NCBI RefSeq assembly: GCF_012910955.1
Contig: NZ_WTVQ01000041.1
Coordinates: 1-44,061, forward strand
Source of the DNA: Aromatoleum diolicum
Lineage (GTDB): Bacteria; Pseudomonadota; Gammaproteobacteria; Burkholderiales; Rhodocyclaceae
Direction: 5' to 3'
Length of the DNA: 44,061 nt
The notes beneath the pieces were generated by a model, which worked only from the letters and a program-made list of their open reading frames with translations, was not told the origin of the DNA and made no database searches. A program made the translations under genes and the position numbers. The stretch's first letter is position 1. Every line of letters begins with the position of its first letter. Shown piece by piece: positions 25,137-33,601 of this stretch.

Positions 25137-25736
25137 TCAGAGCGCTTCTGCGTGCTCGGCCAGGTATTCGGCGACGCCGTTGGTGCTGGCCTTCATGCCG
25201 GCCTTGCCCTTGTTCCAGCCAGCCGGGCAAACCTCGCCGTGCTCTTCGGTGAATTGCAGCGCGTCGACCATGCGGATCATCTCGTCGATGTTGCGGCCCA
25301 GCGGCAGGTCGTTCACCACCTGGTGACGCACCACGCCGTTCTTGTCGATCAGGAAGGAGCCGCGGAAAGCCACCCCGCCTTCGGCTTCAACGTCGTACGC
25401 ACGGCAGATTTCGTGCTTGATGTCGGCGACCAGTGTGTACTGAACTTGACCGATGCCGCCCTTGTTGACCGGGGTGTTTTTCCATGCCAGATGGCTGAAC
25501 TGGCTGTCGATCGAAACACCTAGCACCTCGACGTTGCGCTTCTTGAACTCTTCCAGACGATGATCGAAGGCGATCAGTTCGGACGGGCAGACAAAGGTGA
25601 AATCCAGCGGATAGAAGAACACCACGGCGTACTTGCCCTTGGTGGCGTCCGAGAAAGTGATGTCCTTGATTTCGTTGTTGCCGAGGACTGCGGTCGCGGT
25701 GAAATCGGGGGCCTTCTTGCCGACGAGAACTGCCAT
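25137..25736 (-). CDS. 2-Cys peroxiredoxin (AhpC/Prx1 type)
   Basis: A thiol peroxidase that reduces hydrogen and organic peroxides. The 199-residue protein starts MAVLVGKKAPDFTATAV, the family N-terminus. The peroxidatic Cys50 is in DFTFVCPSE and the resolving Cys170 is in EVCPAGW. The GGIGQVQYTLVADIKHEI segment near the middle and a C-terminal tail around VAEYLAEHAE complete the typical 2-Cys form. I chose the ATG at 25736, preceded by AGGAG; a 26-codon longer frame upstream does not fit the family. It is monocistronic, with a terminator downstream, a TTGCGG-17-CATAAT promoter upstream and an OxyR-like box beyond that. The reductant, AhpF or thioredoxin, is not encoded here. Confidence 0.93.
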   Translation of the reverse strand: MAVLVGKKAPDFTATAVLGNNEIKDITFSDATKGKYAVVFFYPLDFTFVCPSELIAFDHRLEEFKKRNVEVLGVSIDSQFSHLAWKNTPVNKGGIGQVQYTLVADIKHEICRAYDVEAEGGVAFRGSFLIDKNGVVRHQVVNDLPLGRNIDEMIRMVDALQFTEEHGEVCPAGWNKGKAGMKASTNGVAEYLAEHAEAL

Positions 25737-25772
25737 GTTCGAAATCTCCTGAGTGGGTTGAATGACACGATG

Positions 25773-25801
25773 ATTATGTTGCCGCCCACCATAAACCGCA
25801 A
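25773..25801 (-). promoter_or_regulatory. Sigma-70 type promoter of the peroxiredoxin gene
   Basis: On the minus strand TTGCGG (25796-25801) is followed after 17 bases by CATAAT (25773-25778), about 37 bases before the start codon. The spacing is ideal and five of six -10 bases match; the -35 is weak in its last three positions, as is usual for an activated promoter. Confidence 0.6.
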
Positions 25802-25823
25802 ATTGCCTTTTCAATATTGCGAG

Positions 25824-25838
25824 ATAGTAATTTGCTAT
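25824..25838. promoter_or_regulatory. OxyR-like half-site pair upstream of the peroxiredoxin gene
   Basis: ATAG, seven bases, then CTAT: the tetranucleotide cores of the OxyR dimer site (ATAGNTNNNANCTAT), although the inner conserved T and A are not matched. It lies centred about 65 bases upstream of the presumed transcription start, a usual place for OxyR activation. The neighbouring second dimer site is not clear. A peroxide-induced peroxiredoxin is the known kind of target. Confidence 0.45.
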
Positions 25839-25889
25839 CGTTCCGGGATCCGGAATTGACGCCCTTTTCTACGCGATTTCCCCGCTTGC

Positions 25890-25916
25890 TAAACTTTCCG
25901 CCTCGGTTACCGTTAT
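25890..25916 (+). promoter_or_regulatory. Sigma-28 (FliA) like promoter for the chemoreceptor
   Basis: TAAA (25890-25893) is followed after 15 bases by ACCGTTAT (25909-25916). The FliA consensus is TAAA, 15 bases, GCCGATAA; the -35 core matches fully and the -10 in five of eight positions. Chemoreceptor genes are classical FliA targets. The start would fall about 75 bases before the ATG at 26001. Confidence 0.45.
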
Positions 25917-26000
25917 CTACATACAAAGTCATATAAGGCCGCATTGTGAGCCGGCCCCGTGGCCGACCGGCGGCAGAAGAAACAACAGGATCTCGTAGCC

Positions 26001-27629
26001 ATGATGCAACGACTGAAAAACTCCCCGATCTGGGTTCGCCTGATTCTCGCCATCGGCAGCGTGTTGATTGGCGTGGGGAGCAGCCTGGTGGTGTGGGTAT
26101 CCGCCGAACAGGAAAAGATGGCGATCAGCCAGTCGCATGATTTTGCCGAGACCATCAACCAGATGACGATGGCGACGCTGGTGTTCATGAAGAGCACCAA
26201 GACCATCAAGAAGCGGGCGATCTATCTGGATCAGGTGAAAAAATCTTCCGGCCTCACCGACATGCGTGTGGTGCGTGCCGAACCGGTCATTCACCAGTTT
26301 GGCGATGGTGACGAAGATGAAATGAACGTCGGGCCGGACGAGAAGTTTGCGATCGACAGCGGCAAGCCGTTCTTCGAACTCCGCACCGATCCCGCTAAGG
26401 GCAAGATCCTCAAGGCGGTGTTCCCCGCCATCAACCAGACGAACTACCTCGGCAAGGACTGCACGGAATGTCACGACGAATCCCCCGTCGGGACGGTGCT
26501 CGGGGCCGTGACGATGGAGGTGTCGCTCAACCGCATGGATGCTGCCGTCAACGCCTCGCGCACCAAGCTGATCGGCGGCGCTCTCGCCGCGCTGGGCTTG
26601 CTGATGGTGCTGATCTTCGTGTTTCTGCAGGCCGTGGTGGCCAGGCCGTTGGCCGAACTGTCGACTCGCCTGCGTGATATTGCTGACGGCGAAGGTGACT
26701 TGACGCAACGGCTTCCGGTGCGGGCTCAGGACGAGGTTGGCCAGGCGGCGACCTACTTCAATCGCATGATGGAAAAGTTGCAAGGAGTGATCCGAAATAT
26801 CTCGGTCTCTGCCGAACAGGTTTCCGGCGCGGCCTCCGACTTGCAGCGCGGGGCTGTGCAAATTCGCGCCGGCGCCGGCGAGCAGTCTGAAAAATCCGCG
26901 TCGGCCGCCTCTGCGGTTGAGCAGATGGCCGCGAGCATCATGTCGGTCGCGCAGGCGAGTGGTGAAGTGCTTGACCTGGCGCGCAGTAGTCTGTCGCGTG
27001 CGGAGGCCGGAAATGCGGACGTCAGCGAACTCACCGGACGCCTGTCGGACGTCGAGACCGCCGTCACCAAGATGACGCAGACCGTCAATGACTTCATCCA
27101 GAATACCGACGCGATCTCCAGCCTGACCGCGCGGGTCAAGGAAATTGCCGATCAGACCAACCTGCTTGCACTCAATGCCGCTATCGAGGCTGCCCGGGCC
27201 GGTGAGCACGGACGGGGTTTTGCCGTTGTCGCCGACGAGGTGCGCAAGCTCGCCGAAAAATCGACGCGCTCGGCCAGTGACATCGACAATGTCACCCACA
27301 GTCTCAACACGGGCTCCGAGGGGGTTCGCGCGGCCATTACCCAGGGTTCCGAAGCCCTGGTGCTGATCCGCGAGTCGATGCAGCGGGTTTCCGATGCGCT
27401 GCGCAGCAACATGGATTCCGCCAGCGGCGTGGCCGACGGCATGAACAACATTGCCACCGCCACCGAAGAGCAGATGCAGGCCAGTGGCCTGGCGGCAAGC
27501 AGTGTCGAGATGATTGCCGGACTCGCCCAGCAGACGAGCGCCTCGCTCGACGGCGTTGCAAACTCAACGCAAAGCCTCGAACACCTTGCGTCCGAATTGC
27601 GCGACGAGATTCGGCGCTTCCGTGTCTAG
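26001..27629 (+). CDS. Methyl-accepting chemotaxis protein with periplasmic c-type haem motif
   Basis: A 542-residue transmembrane chemoreceptor. One membrane segment (residues 11-33) precedes a periplasmic sensor (about 34-188), a second membrane segment (190-213), HAMP (about 211-265) and a cytoplasmic signalling domain whose hairpin tip [20 protein letters not shown] lies near residues 385-405. The sensor contains CTECH (Cys154, Cys157, His158), the c-type haem attachment motif, in the order [18 protein letters not shown], like the haem-binding sensor domains of Geobacter chemoreceptors. I use the ATG at 26001 with AGGA upstream; an in-frame GTG at 25959 would add 14 residues. It lies just before a cytochrome cluster, so redox or small-ligand sensing by haem is a reasonable inference. 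The ligand is unknown. Confidence 0.93.
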
Positions 27630-27676
27630 ACTGGTCCGGTGTGTGTCAAATGTCGTTTCGGCGCCACAGGCGCGAC

Positions 27677-27705
27677 TTGCTGGCGACTAGGCCAAAAGGT
27701 ATAAG
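27677..27705 (+). promoter_or_regulatory. Sigma-70 type promoter for the cytochrome operon
   Basis: TTGCTG (27677-27682) and TATAAG (27700-27705) are separated by exactly 17 bases, about 56 bases before the monohaem cytochrome ATG. It lies after the chemoreceptor stop, so the cytochromes can be expressed apart from the receptor. Confidence 0.65.
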
Positions 27706-27761
27706 AAACATTCTGCTACAAATGGGGGTTTCGCGGTCTGATCCCTCGCCAAGGAGTTGAA

Positions 27762-28091
27762 ATGAAGCGCTTTTGTCTTATTGCGGCAACGCTCGTTGCC
27801 AGCGCCGTCAGCCTTCCGGCGGCGGCAGTCGACGCCGCCGCGGCTGACGCATTGGTTCGCAAGAGCAAGTGCCTGACCTGCCATGCGGTCGAAAAGAAAA
27901 AAGATGGTCCCCCCTTCAAGGAAACAGCCGGCAAATACAAGGGCAAGCCGGACGCAATCGAAAAACTGACCAAGCACGTCACCGTGCCCAGCAAGGTCAA
28001 GGTCGAGGGCAAGGAAGAAGATCACGAGACTCTCAAGACCGAAGATCCGGCGGCGGTCAAGAACGTGGTTGAGTGGATTTTGTCGCTCTGA
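27762..28091 (+). CDS. Periplasmic monohaem cytochrome c without a Met ligand
   Basis: A 109-residue exported cytochrome c. The signal peptide is MKRFCLIAATLVASAVSLPAAAVDA (cleavage near residue 22). One haem motif, CLTCH (Cys37, Cys40, His41), sits where class I cytochromes have it, and the C-terminal helix VKNVVEWILSL fits. The only Met is the initiator, so the usual Met axial ligand is absent; His72 and His88 are the candidates. AAGGAG precedes the ATG. It precedes the decahaem cytochrome gene and probably carries electrons in the periplasm to or from it; a low potential would be expected of bis-His ligation. The distal ligand is inferred. Confidence 0.88.
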   Translation: MKRFCLIAATLVASAVSLPAAAVDAAAADALVRKSKCLTCHAVEKKKDGPPFKETAGKYKGKPDAIEKLTKHVTVPSKVKVEGKEEDHETLKTEDPAAVKNVVEWILSL

Positions 28092-28289
28092 TCAAGACCA
28101 CGAAGTCAGACGCCAGCAAAAAAACACAAGGGAGGCGAGAACATGGGTCCGACCTGCGAACGACGCAGGGACAGGACGTAGTTCCGCGGGCTGGCGTCTG
28201 CCTGGCACGCATCGGCAATGAGATTTTGTGAGCGCGGCGGCGAGAATCTTGCCGCTCGCCCACACGCGGTAATAAAAGGGGAGAAGTAA
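28092..28289 (+). promoter_or_regulatory. Structured leader between the two cytochrome genes
   Basis: 198 bases. A perfect 11-base inverted repeat (CAGACGCCAGC at 28107-28117 and GCTGGCGTCTG at 28190-28200) encloses 72 bases that contain GGGAGG, a spacer of seven and an ATG with a 12-codon ORF. Downstream a second, GC-rich partly complementary stretch lies at about 28226-28262 before the GGGGAGAA site of the decahaem gene. The pattern suggests RNA-level control or processing of the decahaem transcript, but this is inference. Confidence 0.5.
28143..28181 (+). CDS. Possible 12-residue leader peptide
   Basis: The ORF MGPTCERRRDRT starts at 28143, seven bases after a near-perfect GGGAGG. The ORF and its ribosome-binding site lie wholly between the arms of the inverted repeat at 28107-28200. 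Very short, arginine-rich and lacking known relatives; it may be a leader peptide or chance. It precedes the decahaem cytochrome gene by 108 bases. Confidence 0.3.
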   Translation: MGPTCERRRDRT

Positions 28290-29255
28290 ATGAGGAAAAA
28301 ACCAAGCGGCATCCGGAAGTGGATGTTGGCCGCGCTCGCCGGGGCAGCATTGCTCGGCGGCGCACAAGCATGGGCAGCGACTGAAAGTGGGGAGGCGTCC
28401 AAGCGCAAGGACGTCGTTCAGGTGGGCGACGCGGTATGTACCCGCTGCCATGACGAGGGCGAAGCCAAACCGATCCTGTCGATCGGCAAGACGCCGCACG
28501 GCACGATGGCGGACAAGAAGGCCGGCACCTGTACCAGCTGTCACGGGGCGAGCCCGACGCACATCAACAAGCCGTCCGACGTGACGGAGCGCCCGGAGCC
28601 CGGCATCAATTTCGGCAAGAGTTCCTCCACGCCGATTGCCGAGCGCAATCAGGCCTGTCTGAACTGCCACCAGGGTGGCGCACGCATGCACTGGCAGTCC
28701 GGGCCGCACGCCGCGGCGGACATGGAATGTGCGTCCTGTCACCGGATCCATTCCCAAGAGGATCCCGTGCGCGATCGCGCGACGCAGCCGGAAGTCTGCT
28801 TCAGCTGCCACAAGGAGCAGCGGGCCCTCGTCAATCGCCAGTCGCACCACCCCATCAAGGAAGGGACCGTCATCTGCGCCGACTGCCACAATCCGCACGG
28901 CTCGGCAGGTCCGAAGCTGATGGCGCGCGATAGCGTGGTGCAGACCTGCTACACCTGCCACATGGAGAAGCGTGGCCCGTTCATCCGCACCCACCAACCT
29001 GTTACCGAAGACTGCACGATCTGTCACAACCCGCACGGCTCGAACATCGACAACTTGCTCAAGTCGCGTCCGCCCTTCCTGTGCCAGCAGTGTCACGAAC
29101 CGAGTACACATCAGGGCAATATCGCGTCCACGACGTTCCCGGCTAATACGACGAACAACAATACCTTGGCGCGCGGCTGTCTGAACTGTCATACGCAGAT
29201 TCACGGCACGAACAATCCGCTCAATGTGGGCAACGAACGCACGTTCCGCCGTTGA
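28290..29255 (+). CDS. DmsE/MtrA-type decahaem cytochrome c
   Basis: A 321-residue exported cytochrome with ten CxxCH motifs: the first at Cys50 (CTRCH), then CTSCH, CLNCH, CASCH, CFSCH, CADCH, CYTCH, CTICH, CQQCH, and the last at Cys297-His301 (CLNCH). The signal peptide ends near residue 29 (AQAWA). This fits the DmsE/MtrA/PioA decahaem family, which sits in a porin and passes electrons across the outer membrane. Its direct downstream neighbour, 19 bases away, encodes the MtrB-type porin, which makes this reading firm. The ATG has GGGGAGAA upstream. Whether electrons go out (to minerals or acceptors) or in is not shown by sequence. Confidence 0.93.
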   Translation: MRKKPSGIRKWMLAALAGAALLGGAQAWAATESGEASKRKDVVQVGDAVCTRCHDEGEAKPILSIGKTPHGTMADKKAGTCTSCHGASPTHINKPSDVTERPEPGINFGKSSSTPIAERNQACLNCHQGGARMHWQSGPHAAADMECASCHRIHSQEDPVRDRATQPEVCFSCHKEQRALVNRQSHHPIKEGTVICADCHNPHGSAGPKLMARDSVVQTCYTCHMEKRGPFIRTHQPVTEDCTICHNPHGSNIDNLLKSRPPFLCQQCHEPSTHQGNIASTTFPANTTNNNTLARGCLNCHTQIHGTNNPLNVGNERTFRR

Positions 29256-29274
29256 TCAGGGATAGGGGAAAATC

Positions 29275-31425
29275 ATGAAGATGCGTGCAGATAAGACGGC
29301 ATTCCGGATTGCCGCCCTCGCAGCGGCAGTTTCCGCGGCGTTTTCGTCAAACGTGATGGCGGAAGAAGCCGACGAGATGACCCGGCTGATCAAGCCCGAA
29401 AGCAGCGTCCGCTTGGGTATCGGCTCGGTGGACAAGGGCAATGCCCGGTTCGGTCAGTACCTCGGGCTGCAGGACAGCGGTGTGTACGGCCTGGCAGATA
29501 TTGACGTGGTGCGGCGTGACGACGCGACAGGCACCTGGTTCAAGCTGCGCGGCCGCAATCTGGGGCTGGACAGGCGCGAACTGGGCTTGGTCTACGGTCC
29601 TCAGGGTGACTGGAAGCTGTCGCTCGATTACCGCGAGATTCCGCGTTACAGCCAGTACACGATCAACACGGGATTGCAGGGGATTGGTTCGGAGAACCTG
29701 CGTGTTCAGTCGGCGAACAAGCGCGACAAGGTTCTCGAAACCAAGCGCGAGAAGGTCTCGCTCGGCTTTCAGAAATCCATCGGTGACAACTGGAGCGCGC
29801 GCTTCCGTTTCACGAACGAGGAAAAGGATGGCACGCGCCTGTTCGCAAGGGGAACGAGCAGCGGCGTGGGTAATGCCAACCGCTGGTTCAATTTCCTTGC
29901 CGAACCGATCGACAGCACGATCACACAGTGGGAGGCGCTCATTTCCTACGCTGATCCGCGCTTCCAGTTGCAGGGTGGGTACTATGGCTCGCACTACTCG
30001 AATCACAACACCAGCCTGAACATCACGGGCGGCGGTGTCGGATTCAACGGTGCGGGTGCAAACACGCTCTCGCCGATCGCGCTCGCGCCGAGCAACGAGG
30101 CTCACCAGTTCTTCGTCGATGGCGGTTACAACTTCACGCCAACGACCCGCGCGTCGTTCAAGGTTGCCTACACCAATGCGACGCAGACCGATGCGTTCGT
30201 CGCCAATCCTCCCGGGGTCCTGAACACTGCGACGACCGGAAACATCTCGGGTCGGACGAACCTCGGCGGGCGCGTGGAGACCACACTGGCCTACCTTGGG
30301 CTCAGTTCCCGACCGCTGCCGAAGTTGTCCCTGCTGGGGAGCCTGCGCTATGAGGACCGCGACGACAAGACGCCGGTTGTGAGGTACATCAGCACGACGC
30401 CTACAGGTAACCATGACGGCACGAACGAAACCCGTTCCTTCCGTACGTCACAGGGCAAGTTCGAAGCGAACTACCTGGTTGCGAATGGCTATCGGCTGGT
30501 TGCCGGTCTGGATCACGACGTCAAGGACCGCGACACCTCCGACGTGCGTGTCGTCAGTCATCGCGACACGACCGAGGAGACAGCGTGGAAGATCGAACTG
30601 CGCCGCGCGATGTCCGAAACGGCCAATGGCTCGATTGCTTATGTCAGCAGTGAGCGCACGGGGTCCGATTTCAAGGTCAATTACCGCTTCAACGGCACGC
30701 CGGGGCGAAATGTCATTGCACCGATCCATCTTGCCGACCGCGATCGCGAGAAAATCCGCCTGAGCGCCGACTGGACGCCGATCGAGTCGCTGAGCCTGCA
30801 GGCCAACATCGAGGATTCGCGCGACAGCTATTCGTCCCGTGCCGACCTCGGTCTGGGCGCCCGCCGCGGCTCCTCGAAGCTGTACTCGCTGGACGCGACC
30901 TACAATGCGTCGAGCGCGCTGAGCTTCAATGCCTGGGCAACGCACTCCGACACGCAGTCCAAGCAGGCGACAGCATTCAATGCGCCCGAGGTGGTGACGC
31001 TGACGGCCGCGCAGATTTCCGCGCTCAACATCTGGTCCGCAGGGTTGATCAACAAGACCGACGCGGTGGGCCTGGGGGCCGACCTGAAACTGAGCGAGAA
31101 ACTCGACGTCGGGGCGGATTTCGAGTTTTCGGAGGATCGCGCCGAGTACCGTCTGCGGCCCGAACGTGGCGTGACGGGGGCAGCGAGCCTGCCGGACATC
31201 AAGTACCGCACCGCAACCTTCCGCCTCTTCGGACGCTATGCGCTGCGCAAGAACGCCGGGATTCAACTTGACCTCGTGCATGATCGCCGCGTGATCGATG
31301 ACTGGACTTGGAGCACCTGGGTGTATAACTCGCCGACCGCCGCCGGCGATGGTACGACCGTCGGCCAGGATCGTACGCAGACGACGACCTTCGTAGGACT
31401 CTCGGGCTACTACAAGTGGTGGTAA
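29275..31425 (+). CDS. MtrB/PioB-family outer-membrane porin
   Basis: A 716-residue protein with signal peptide (cleavage near residue 28, ...SSNVMA|EEA) and no predicted membrane helix otherwise, but many alternating strands ending in YYKWW, as expected for an outer-membrane barrel. It belongs to the MtrB/PioB decahaem-associated family, in which the barrel sheathes the decahaem cytochrome. Shewanella MtrB has an essential N-terminal CxxC; no Cys is visible in this protein. GGGGAAAATC precedes the ATG, 19 bases after the decahaem stop, so the two are one operon. A good terminator follows. No outer cytochrome (MtrC/OmcA type) is encoded next to it. Confidence 0.9.
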   Translation: MKMRADKTAFRIAALAAAVSAAFSSNVMAEEADEMTRLIKPESSVRLGIGSVDKGNARFGQYLGLQDSGVYGLADIDVVRRDDATGTWFKLRGRNLGLDRRELGLVYGPQGDWKLSLDYREIPRYSQYTINTGLQGIGSENLRVQSANKRDKVLETKREKVSLGFQKSIGDNWSARFRFTNEEKDGTRLFARGTSSGVGNANRWFNFLAEPIDSTITQWEALISYADPRFQLQGGYYGSHYSNHNTSLNITGGGVGFNGAGANTLSPIALAPSNEAHQFFVDGGYNFTPTTRASFKVAYTNATQTDAFVANPPGVLNTATTGNISGRTNLGGRVETTLAYLGLSSRPLPKLSLLGSLRYEDRDDKTPVVRYISTTPTGNHDGTNETRSFRTSQGKFEANYLVANGYRLVAGLDHDVKDRDTSDVRVVSHRDTTEETAWKIELRRAMSETANGSIAYVSSERTGSDFKVNYRFNGTPGRNVIAPIHLADRDREKIRLSADWTPIESLSLQANIEDSRDSYSSRADLGLGARRGSSKLYSLDATYNASSALSFNAWATHSDTQSKQATAFNAPEVVTLTAAQISALNIWSAGLINKTDAVGLGADLKLSEKLDVGADFEFSEDRAEYRLRPERGVTGAASLPDIKYRTATFRLFGRYALRKNAGIQLDLVHDRRVIDDWTWSTWVYNSPTAAGDGTTVGQDRTQTTTFVGLSGYYKWW

Positions 31426-31462
31426 GCGCCCGGCGGGCTTGATCCCCGTCCGTCTGGCATGT

Positions 31463-31495
31463 AAGGCCGTCCAGTTTCGACTGGGCGGCCTTTTT
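31463..31495 (+). terminator. Rho-independent terminator of the cytochrome-porin operon
   Basis: The arms AAGGCCGTCCAGT (31463-31475) and ACTGGGCGGCCTT (31480-31492) pair over 13 bases with one G-U, loop TTCG, followed by five Ts (31491-31495). It lies 37 bases after the porin stop and ends the operon. Confidence 0.9.
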
Positions 31496-31629
31496 GTTGC
31501 TGGCTTTCGGGTAGCCTCGTCGCGGCAACTGACCGGCTCGGATGATCCGGGACTTGTGCAATCGACAAGATCCGTGCAGTCGATAGCGCGTCGAGCGAAT
31601 TGGGGCGGATGAGGGGTGGATCGTAGGGT

Positions 31630-31920
31630 CTATAGCGTTGCTTGCACGGTGAACGTTGGTGACTCCGGCACATCCGTGACGGTGATTTCAATTGCCGCGA
31701 CCTGAGCATGGGTCGGGCCGCGATGCGCCCAGGCGACGAATTGCTCGACGGCCGTCTCCGGCCCGGCGATCAAGGCTTCGACGGAACCATCGCCGCGATT
31801 GCGCACCCAACCGCTCAGCCCCAGCCGTTCCGCTTCGAACTGCGCACTCGCCCGGTAACCCACGCCCTGCACCCGGCCGCGGATCATCAGGCGCCGCGCG
31901 ATGATCATTCGCCTATACAT
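31630..31920 (-). CDS. acyP: Acylphosphatase
   Basis: A small hydrolase of acyl-phosphates. I choose the ATG at 31920 because it has GGAGG six bases upstream and overlaps the end of the SulP gene; this gives 96 residues. The catalytic Arg23 is in GRVQGVGYR and Asn41 in GWVRNRGDG, the two family signatures. The rest follows the alpha/beta fold of about 90 residues. An inner ATG at 31908 is possible, and a longer frame reaching into SulP is not supported. It is probably translated with the SulP transporter, but no functional link is known between the two families. Confidence 0.9.
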   Translation of the reverse strand: MYRRMIIARRLMIRGRVQGVGYRASAQFEAERLGLSGWVRNRGDGSVEALIAGPETAVEQFVAWAHRGPTHAQVAAIEITVTDVPESPTFTVQATL

Positions 31921-33601
31921 ACGAAACCTCCGGTTCGTGCCCCCGCGTCCGCTGGGCGCGAAAAAGCGCGTCGGTGATGTTGCCCGCAATATTCCGTCCC
32001 CCCAGTCTTTCCTGAAAGCCCGAACGCTCGACGATCGATGCCGGCTGGGCATTGAGGTCGCACAGCATCAGGTCCGCTCCGCGCTTTTGCAGAGTCCGGT
32101 GCAAGGTCTGCAACATGTCGAGGCCGGTGGTATCGATGTTGATAACCTTTTCCATGTCCAGGATCACGACGTCCGGGTGGCCGTCCTGCATCATCACCAG
32201 GTTTTCGAGTTTGTTGGCTGCGCCGAAGAACAGACTGCCGAACACGCGGTAGGCGAGGACTCGAGGCGTGCCGTCGGGGCGCGACAATGCTTCGACACCA
32301 TAGTGTTCCTCGAGTGCGATCCGTTCGATGCGCGTCAGGTCGGACATGCGATAGATGAAGAACAGGCTCGCCAGCACCATCCCGAGTTCGACGGCCAGGG
32401 TCAGATCGAATACCACGGTGACGAAGAAGGTCCCCAGCAGGATCGCGCGGTACTGGTTCGAATAACGGGTCAGCTCCTTCCACGCAAAGGCATGCCATTC
32501 GCCCATGTTGATCGAGACGACAACGACGATGGCAGAGAGTGTCGCAAGCGGGATGTGTGCGGCCAGCGGGGCGAGCACCAACACGACCGCGAGCAGCACG
32601 ACCGCGTGAATCATGCCCGCCACCGGGGATTGCCCACCGGCGCGGATATTGGTAGCGGTGCGGGCGATCGCGCCGGTGGCTGCGAACCCACCGAACAGCG
32701 GTGCCGCGATGTTGGCGATTCCCTGGGCCATCAATTCCTGGTTGGGGTCGTGGCGGTCGTCGATCTGGTTGTCGGCGACACGTGCGGACAGCAGCGATTC
32801 GATCGCGCCCAGCAAGGCGATCGTGAGCGCAGGCGCGATCAGCTTGCCCAGCGTGCCGAGCGACAGAGCGGGAAGACCAAAGCCGGGTAGTTCCTGCGGA
32901 ATGCCGCCGAAGCGGCTGCCGATCGTGTCGATGGGCAAACCGATCACGGCATTGACGGCCGTGGCCATCAGCAATACGGCAAGCGGTCCCGGTACGCGGC
33001 GCATCCATGCCGCACGGTTTGCGATCCGGTTCCACGACAGCAGCACCACGAGTGAGGCTGCGGCGACAACAATGGTAGGGAGGTGGACCGTGTGCAAGGC
33101 GCCGAGCAGCGCCTCCATCTTTCCGAAGAACTCGCCTGGCATTTTTTCGATTGCCAGCCCGAGGAAATCCTTGATCTGCGAGATGAAGATCACCACGGCG
33201 ATGCCATTGGTAAAACCGATCACCACCGACACCGGAATGAAGCGGATCATGTTGCCGAGCCGGAACGCGCCCATGGCAAACAGCATCACGCCCGACATCA
33301 TTGTCGCGATCAGCAGGTTCTGGATACCGTAGTCGACGACGATGGCATAAACGATCGGAATGAAAGCGCCAGTGGGGCCACCGATCTGGACTTTCGAGCC
33401 GCCGAGCGCGGAGATCAGGAAACCCGCGACGATCGCGGTCCAGATGCCCGCGGTCGGGCTCATCCCTGACGCAATGGCAAAGGCCATCGCCAGCGGCAAG
33501 GCGAGAACGCCCACCGTGATGCCGGCGGATATGTCATGGGTCAATGCAGTCCTGCCGTAGCCGGGCAGGGTGTCAAACAGCTTGGGGCGAAAATTTATCA
33601 C
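31913..33601 (-). CDS. SulP-family anion transporter with STAS domain
   Basis: An inner-membrane transporter of 562 residues. About ten to twelve hydrophobic segments fill residues 20-420, with the SulP signatures TVGVLALPLAMAFAIASGM near residue 30 and IGGPTGAFIPIVYAIV near residue 73. The C-terminal STAS domain (about 440-555) holds VVILDMEKVINIDTTGLDML. SulP proteins carry sulfate, bicarbonate or other anions; the substrate cannot be fixed here. The start is a GTG at 33601 with GGAGG four bases before it, so it may be weakly translated. Its TAG is overlapped by the acylphosphatase start. Confidence 0.92.
   Translation of the reverse strand: MINFRPKLFDTLPGYGRTALTHDISAGITVGVLALPLAMAFAIASGMSPTAGIWTAIVAGFLISALGGSKVQIGGPTGAFIPIVYAIVVDYGIQNLLIATMMSGVMLFAMGAFRLGNMIRFIPVSVVIGFTNGIAVVIFISQIKDFLGLAIEKMPGEFFGKMEALLGALHTVHLPTIVVAAASLVVLLSWNRIANRAAWMRRVPGPLAVLLMATAVNAVIGLPIDTIGSRFGGIPQELPGFGLPALSLGTLGKLIAPALTIALLGAIESLLSARVADNQIDDRHDPNQELMAQGIANIAAPLFGGFAATGAIARTATNIRAGGQSPVAGMIHAVVLLAVVLVLAPLAAHIPLATLSAIVVVVSINMGEWHAFAWKELTRYSNQYRAILLGTFFVTVVFDLTLAVELGMVLASLFFIYRMSDLTRIERIALEEHYGVEALSRPDGTPRVLAYRVFGSLFFGAANKLENLVMMQDGHPDVVILDMEKVINIDTTGLDMLQTLHRTLQKRGADLMLCDLNAQPASIVERSGFQERLGGRNIAGNITDALFRAQRTRGHEPEVSYV

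Follow-up and report, generated by a model that had tools for sequence, protein, structure and literature searches.

The window, a complete contig of 44,061 nt (NZ_WTVQ01000041.1) from the 5.15-Mb draft genome of Aromatoleum diolicum (146 contigs), carries a four-gene block at 26001–31425 in which a chemoreceptor with a periplasmic haem-c motif adjoins the genes of an outer-membrane electron conduit. The union of receptor and conduit is real and conserved: across the genus the four genes either occur all together or are all missing, and all the conduit-adjacent receptors found fall into one well-supported clade. The function suggested by the sequences is redox taxis, and we give about an even chance to the reading that the haem of the receptor signals how reduced or oxidised the pool of electrons is that the conduit serves.

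How motile bacteria sense reachable extracellular electron donors and acceptors is not settled. In Shewanella, mtrBC/omcA and a Cache receptor of the methyl-accepting chemotaxis protein (MCP) type are both required for gathering at minerals, and the available part of that report names no molecular tie between them (PMC5789149). With a haem-motif receptor genetically linked to a single conduit, named Aromatoleum strains make the question testable, and the block could serve as a marker for conduits of motile, gradient-following cells. An expression tie has reportedly been described for Shewanella, under the title 'Genome-wide expression links the electron transfer pathway of Shewanella oneidensis to chemotaxis' (PMC2886065). 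The individual parts of the block are of known kinds, and haem-bearing MCPs are already known. In the available sections of a Gallionellaceae study, the c-type cytochromes include clusters of MCPs, each apparently carrying one CXXCH (PMC10734462), and a term search in the accessible text of a porin-cytochrome cluster survey returned no mention of chemotaxis or methyl-accepting proteins (PMC4245776). Among the open-licence papers that our searches listed, no title or opening part of an abstract describes a genetic link between a haem MCP and a conduit.

The Four-Gene Block and Its Products

The block comprises, in this order and all on the plus strand, genes for the receptor, a monohaem cytochrome, a decahaem cytochrome, and a beta-barrel. 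A preliminary description of the same DNA had reported four adjacent same-strand genes with these haem motifs; all ORFs, coordinates and CxxCH motifs were confirmed, and its assignment of the products to chemoreceptors, cytochromes and MtrB/PioB barrels agrees with profile scores above the cut-offs. Its suggestion that the cell could steer by the redox state or ligands around the conduit has partial support.

The receptor gene (26001–27629, + strand; ATG at 26001, stop at 27629) encodes a predicted haem-c MCP of 542 aa. Its predicted layout is a first transmembrane helix (TM1), a periplasmic Cache/PAS-like domain, TM2, HAMP, and the MCP signalling domain, with the transmembrane helices placed from the AlphaFold2 model (pLDDT 85.7) and the sequence. 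The HAMP (PF00672) and MCPsignal (PF00015) domains scored 48.3 bits (cut-off 25) and 119.6 bits (cut-off 34.6), respectively. The haem-c attachment motif CTECH, read from the translation, occupies residues 154–158 (26460–26474, + strand). C154, C157, and H158 are invariant in all 39 aligned sensors, the window receptor included, and CxxCH is present in 40/40 further relatives. Met63, on the N-terminal helix, is likewise invariant in 39/39.

The sensor most likely belongs to the c-haem Cache kind that is named sCache_heme in the available part of a 2026 preprint (PMC12889525). The Pfam family Mcp40H-20_sensor (PF21563) matches 23 of the 39 relatives at E ≤ 1 (best 1.6e-5), and the window receptor with E 7.4e-4 and 20.2 bits, under the cut-off of 27. 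Tll0287-like (PF11845) matches 12/39 relatives (best E 0.0054) and leaves the window receptor unmatched at E ≤ 1. Sequence searches of PDB, using the receptor sensor alone or as a profile, yielded no haem sensor; only the fold search gave one. In particular, Foldseek with the predicted model ranked 3b42, the haem sensor of GSU0935, second among PDB entries (E 1.7e-5), after a model of WalK.

The three genes downstream encode the putative conduit. The first (27762–28091, + strand) specifies an MtoD-like periplasmic class I cytochrome c of 109 aa with one haem, its signal peptide being recognized by eye. It scored 30.4 bits with Cytochrom_C (cut-off 21.3), and its best PDB match is 4xxl (E 1.6e-24), named there cytochrome c class I, which we take to be MtoD of Sideroxydans. 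The second (28290–29255, + strand) encodes a periplasmic decahaem cytochrome c of the DmsE/MtrA/MtoA family, 321 aa long with ten CxxCH motifs (TIGR03508, 279 bits, cut-off 192.2; PDB 6r2q chain A, E 2.4e-66). After a gap of 19 bases, it is followed by the gene for an MtrB/PioB/MtoB outer-membrane beta-barrel of 716 aa (29275–31425, + strand), which scored 535 bits with MtrB_PioB and 365 bits with TIGR03509 (cut-off 240.05) and matched 6r2q chain B (E 2.6e-28). The entry 6r2q is presumably a Shewanella MtrCAB complex, although its molecules bear different names in the database copy used. The closest named relatives of the decahaem protein come from three Aromatoleum species and Azoarcus sp. 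Aa7 (71–73% identity), followed by a metagenome-assembled genome (MAG) labelled Thiobacillus (71%). An MtoD-like ORF lies within 1.5 kb of the decahaem gene in 62 of 99 relatives.

In content and order the trio looks like MtoD-MtoA-MtoB, and the barrel and decahaem pair may, by family, transfer electrons across the outer membrane. The OmcA/MtrC family (TIGR03507) had no match in the 146 contigs of the host genome at E ≤ 0.001. The NapC/NirT family matched at one place, outside the block, and the block itself contains no CymA-type quinol partner. No DmsAB-type reductase was found between the flanking genes, the only part of the genome searched for DmsAB. The host has two further monohaem-decahaem-barrel sets (L144 on contig C130 and L145 on contig C124), with no receptor seen beside them; the contig of L144 is 4.8 kb long. 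The inner-membrane partner of the three conduits is not obvious.

All-or-None Occurrence Within the Genus

The block is bounded by a divergent peroxiredoxin gene on the left and by a convergent pair, an acylphosphatase-like ORF and a SulP-family transporter gene, on the right. We compared this place in 17 genomes of the genus, in all of which both the SulP and the peroxiredoxin genes were found. The two are joined in 16 genomes; eight carry all four genes between them, and eight carry none. In the remaining genome (G344), the SulP and peroxiredoxin genes lie at contig ends, and the place cannot be judged. The gap between the two genes in the eight block-less genomes is 0.42–0.52 kb. By tblastn (E ≤ 1e-3), the acylphosphatase-like ORF is all that it contains, and the 10-kb regions of these genomes gave no match to any stretch of the receptor, the two cytochromes or the barrel. 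The preliminary description had proposed to look in relatives for the receptor beside the conduit pair and had named a lack of such conservation as refuting its reading; within the genus, the two stand together in 8/8 members with the locus, and the reading was not refuted.

In a dnaE+SulP tree of 16 genus genomes and G009, three changes account for the presence and absence of the block. As the block lies between dnaE and SulP in G009 too, a genome from outside the genus, an old presence with later losses of the whole block is favoured, although a gain is possible. Five of the eight block-less members have no TIGR03508 match at all, and the other three (G213, G233, and G322) have other conduits.

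The Receptor-Conduit Link Beyond the Genus

Among 395 genomes of the bacterial family, 274 have matches to the whole window receptor at E ≤ 1e-50, some of them possibly through the signalling domain alone. In 20 regions around the best receptor matches, a conduit is beside the receptor in 14 and absent in 6. The receptor tree comprised 54 rows; L236, L237, L240, L241, and a 309-residue ORF of L137 were left out as having other output domains or being truncated, as was the broken gene of L054. A clade of 18 receptors (support 100/99) holds all 16 conduit-adjacent ones, including that of the window, so that 16 of its 18 members are adjacent to a conduit. Outside it, 0/36 receptors are, with less than 2.5 kb available on one side in six of them (L036, L141, L160, L225, L226, and L239). 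The same was found for 41 further relatives, the next in order among the receptor matches listed: 0/41 are conduit-adjacent, with a contig end close to the receptor in L301, L305, and L308 at least. For 40 of these, the best match was determined, and in no case does it lie within the linked clade.

Inside the linked clade, the gene order varies. The receptor is upstream on the same strand in nine genomes (the window, seven genus members, and G009), divergent from the conduit in four (G170, G215, G140, and G053), and downstream of the barrel in three (G129, G358, and G270). The link has thus outlived rearrangement. The receptor stands beside the pair, in a changed gene order, in at least six genera besides Aromatoleum (g2, g10, g23, g49, g53, and g62), and so the conservation asked about in the preliminary description extends well past the genus. 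Chance neighbourhood of receptor and conduit is ruled out by the eight-all, eight-none pattern together with the receptor tree. We also considered conduit linkage as a general rule for haem MCPs and rejected it, as the linkage was found in one clade only.

Several side observations concern receptors of this kind. In L054 (8771–9484), a receptor gene downstream of a barrel keeps about 80 N-terminal residues, followed by unrelated sequence; it lacks CxxCH, being cut before the motif, and is either a broken gene or an assembly join. The same kind of haem sensor domain is found within proteins of 823–826 residues in L236, L237, and L240, and is followed in L236 and L240 by apparent PAS-GGDEF-EAL outputs, as judged by eye. 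A second haem sensor of G358 (L137:17074–18001), with the motif CLFCH, HAMP, and the start of a PAS domain, lies 3.8 kb from a decahaem gene and is cut by the end of the locus.

A Second Conduit Branch and Apparent Exchange of Conduit Genes

The decahaem proteins were analyzed in a quick tree of 99 rows, for which the careful search was unfinished and L105 was left out, and in a careful tree of 47 chosen rows. One group of 16, consisting of 15 linked conduits plus L049, has support 89/87 (unstarred) in the careful tree and 95 in the quick tree. The conduit of G053 falls elsewhere in the careful tree, where its sister (100/100) is L107, a locus whose flanking sequence contains no receptor. In G053, then, a receptor of the linked clade is paired with a clearly different conduit branch. 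This pairing was noticed by eye, by comparing coordinates among the receptor and TIGR03508 matches listed, and there is at least one such case. G009 was also considered as an independent partner and was rejected, since the separate place of its conduit is insecure (p-AU 0.10); we claim only G053.

The block has diverged unevenly. Between the window and its seven genus mates, identity is 85–89% for the receptor, 85–87% for SulP, 78–90% for the monohaem protein, 74–81% for the decahaem protein, and 43–64% for the barrel. Among the six closest genus members, the receptors are 94–98% identical, while the adjacent barrels are 69–70% identical between two groups of the same genomes. For instance, G288 and G311 share 98% in the receptor and 70% in the barrel, whereas the barrels of G288 and G333 are 91% identical. 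In trees, G288 groups with G333 by its decahaem protein (100/94), and with G311 by dnaE+SulP (100/99) and by the receptor (96/78). It seems that Aromatoleum species have exchanged the decahaem and barrel pair among themselves beside a constant receptor and monohaem shuttle. Such an exchange would fit a receptor that reads the periplasmic pool and does not touch the barrel.

Proposed Mechanism and Its Strength

We propose that the four genes form one functional block, in which an inner-membrane chemoreceptor would monitor an Mto-type outer-membrane conduit. The decahaem cytochrome would sit in the barrel, the MtoD-like protein would act as a periplasmic shuttle, and the single periplasmic haem c of the receptor would swap electrons with the pool of periplasmic cytochromes, which is filled or drained by the conduit. 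In the reduced state, a methionine of the N-terminal helix, for which the invariant Met63 is the best candidate, would ligate the haem iron, and upon oxidation it would leave. Via TM2 and HAMP, the ligand shift would then reach the signalling domain and alter flagellar switching. The cell would remain where the conduit carries current, a form of redox taxis coupled to a single respiratory or lithotrophic pathway. Haem loading, redox exchange, the ligand switch, the direction of electron flow, and the behaviour are what we infer here; as for the direction, the Mto-like make-up, with an MtoD-like protein and no MtrC, leans toward uptake.

A precedent for the switch comes from Geobacter. According to the available part of a review, the haems of GSU0935 and GSU0582 are high-spin when oxidised and low-spin when reduced, probably with Met60, and switch between Met60 and water with the redox state; the potentials are −251 mV for GSU0935 and −156 mV for GSU0582 (PMC8396549). 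The Shewanella congregation at minerals, for which conduit and Cache MCP are both required, is a precedent on the side of behaviour (PMC5789149). The host genome has eight CheW-domain places.

A narrower version of the proposal is a dedicated electrical sense, where the haem would be wired by direct exchange with MtoD or the decahaem protein, and one receptor would report the current of one conduit and guide movement toward whatever loads it, be it solids, Fe(II) or partner cells. We regard it as possible, with perhaps one chance in three.

A number of observations weigh against the redox proposal. Gene linkage by itself does not demonstrate any reading of the conduit by the receptor. As the linked rows share ancestry, their counts represent a few events and not 16. 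Two members of the linked clade are not conduit-adjacent, namely, a host paralog on contig C58 and the receptor of G344, a genome with no TIGR03508 match over the cut-off (best E 6.5e-8). Conduits also occur without the receptor: among 79 named decahaem loci, several of them short, the receptor is present in nine, one of these being the broken gene of L054, and most have none; the block-less G213, G233, and G322 have kept their other conduits without it; and in L049, a 4.8-kb contig of a Thiobacillus-labelled MAG whose conduit lies inside the linked group, the 375 bases available upstream contain no remains of the receptor. On the side of structure, the superposition with 3b42 is poor (TM 0.34 by query and 0.53 by target, rmsd 13.7), and Met63 is a candidate for the distal haem ligand only by analogy of position with Geobacter Met60, across families that are not aligned residue by residue. 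The charges are of no help either. The linked sensors are more acidic (mean −6.2, n = 16, versus −2.2, n = 82), but the two unlinked clade members are acidic too, and the MtoD-like proteins that adjoin receptors are less cationic (2.5, n = 17, versus 4.9, n = 62). Electrostatic docking of the receptor with MtoD was therefore dropped as support, the charge data being mixed.

As to the surroundings of the two unlinked clade members, the host paralog (L146:8146–9768), with the motif CLECH and 44% identity over the protein, follows shortly after rnfC, rnfD, and FMN-binding (rnfG-like) genes, and the G344 receptor (L135:8850–10472) lies near ccmE and cytochrome-c-assembly (ccmC-like) genes.

Alternative Explanations

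The main rival, which could be combined with the redox reading, is that the receptor senses NO and steers the cell away from or along nitrosative gradients, and that the conduit adjoins it because both serve anaerobic life. The host, as we assume from its genus, is probably a denitrifier. The available part of the sCache_heme preprint describes slow NO release and no stable oxygen complex for a HAMP-linked protein of Pseudomonas azotoformans and assigns the signalling members to NO sensing (PMC12889525), which speaks against redox sensing; in addition, GSU0582 and GSU0935 bind NO and CO, as stated in the accessible part of the review on the Geobacter sensors (PMC8396549). However, NO sensing offers no reason for the all-or-none occurrence with the conduit or for the association with a second conduit branch, and other haem MCPs from the same bacterial family and order, which could sense NO too, are conduit-adjacent in 0/77 cases. 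We consider NO sensing unlikely.

The receptor could also be a passenger, functionally unconnected with the conduit, in a block whose genes are exchanged or lost jointly. Close relatives share their gene order by descent, and the eight genus members may represent one inheritance; moreover, conduit genes do recombine within the genus, as seen in the conflicting affinities of G288. Yet the link persists through three gene orders, seven genera, and a second conduit branch, and the receptor has stayed nearly constant where the adjoining barrel changed. This leaves the passenger explanation rather improbable.

It is quite improbable, in our estimate, that the Cache pocket senses a small molecule, such as a chelate or a quinone-like shuttle used by the conduit, with the haem being structural or tuning. 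The predicted Cache/PAS-like fold would allow it, and Foldseek also returned the ligand-binding Cache sensors CitA (E 0.013) and PctC (E 0.015), but the invariance of the haem motif in both sets of sensors points to the haem as the working group. Least of all do we expect the receptor to be a member of the electron path, a membrane-anchored haem relay from MtoD to an inner-membrane quinone enzyme with a secondary chemotaxis domain: the lack of an MtrC/OmcA-family match, the single NapC/NirT place, and the absence of an obvious inner-membrane partner leave room for one, but both HAMP and the MCP signalling domain are intact, and one haem whose ligand can switch would make a poor relay.

Flanking Genes and Other Features

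The left boundary of the block, conserved in the genus, is the divergent peroxiredoxin (AhpC/TSA) gene at 25137–25739 (− strand). To the right are the acylphosphatase-like ORF (31633–31923, − strand), which is found with and without the block and whose family name was assigned by eye, and the SulP-family transporter gene (31913–33601, − strand), which forms the conserved right boundary.

An intrinsic-terminator-like hairpin of 13 pairs followed by a T run (31463–31492, + strand) lies after the barrel gene. In 25700–31700, the plus strand has just one more terminator-like site, at 26121 within the MCP gene, and it is weak (5 pairs). The promoter scan gave no sigma-70-like site (1.1 expected by chance). 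The FNR-box scan of the window gave 17 matches against 10.8 expected, a number reached in 3 of 100 shuffles, with none upstream of the block genes. Repeats were considered as traces of insertion in 25700–31960, and nothing convincing was found. Between the monohaem and decahaem genes, there is a 14-nt inverted repeat (28104–28203) whose arms are 72 nt apart and 93% complementary, a possible RNA hairpin.

Between the peroxiredoxin and receptor genes, there is a palindrome ATAG-N7-CTAT (25824–25838). It is kept in 15 of 16 genus genomes (absent in L250), whether the block is present or not. We take it to resemble half of an OxyR-type site, and it probably serves the peroxiredoxin gene.

Comparison With Known Systems

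Like the haem-c MCPs GSU0582 and GSU0935 of Geobacter sulfurreducens, the window receptor has a periplasmic PAS/Cache-like domain with one CXXCH between two predicted transmembrane helices, followed by HAMP and the MCP domain; it differs from this kind in that its Mcp40H-20_sensor match falls below the cut-off. The conduit part is similar to the Mto system of Sideroxydans and to PioAB in its adjacent decahaem and barrel genes, the monohaem class I cytochrome just upstream, and the absence of an OmcA/MtrC-family match in the genome. Unlike MtoAB-MtoD and PioAB, the block includes a chemoreceptor and has no CymA-like partner. By contrast with MtrCAB, the metal-reducing form of Shewanella, the host has no match for the extracellular OmcA/MtrC decahaem partner.

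The nearest behavioural counterpart is the congregation of Shewanella oneidensis, in which a Cache MCP (SO_2240) and an outer-membrane conduit (MtrBC/OmcA) are likewise combined, there for taxis to solid acceptors. By its tag, SO_2240 lies away from the mtr genes (SO_1776–SO_1779), and the available part of the report does not call it a haem protein (PMC5789149), whereas the window receptor carries a haem motif and is linked to its conduit.

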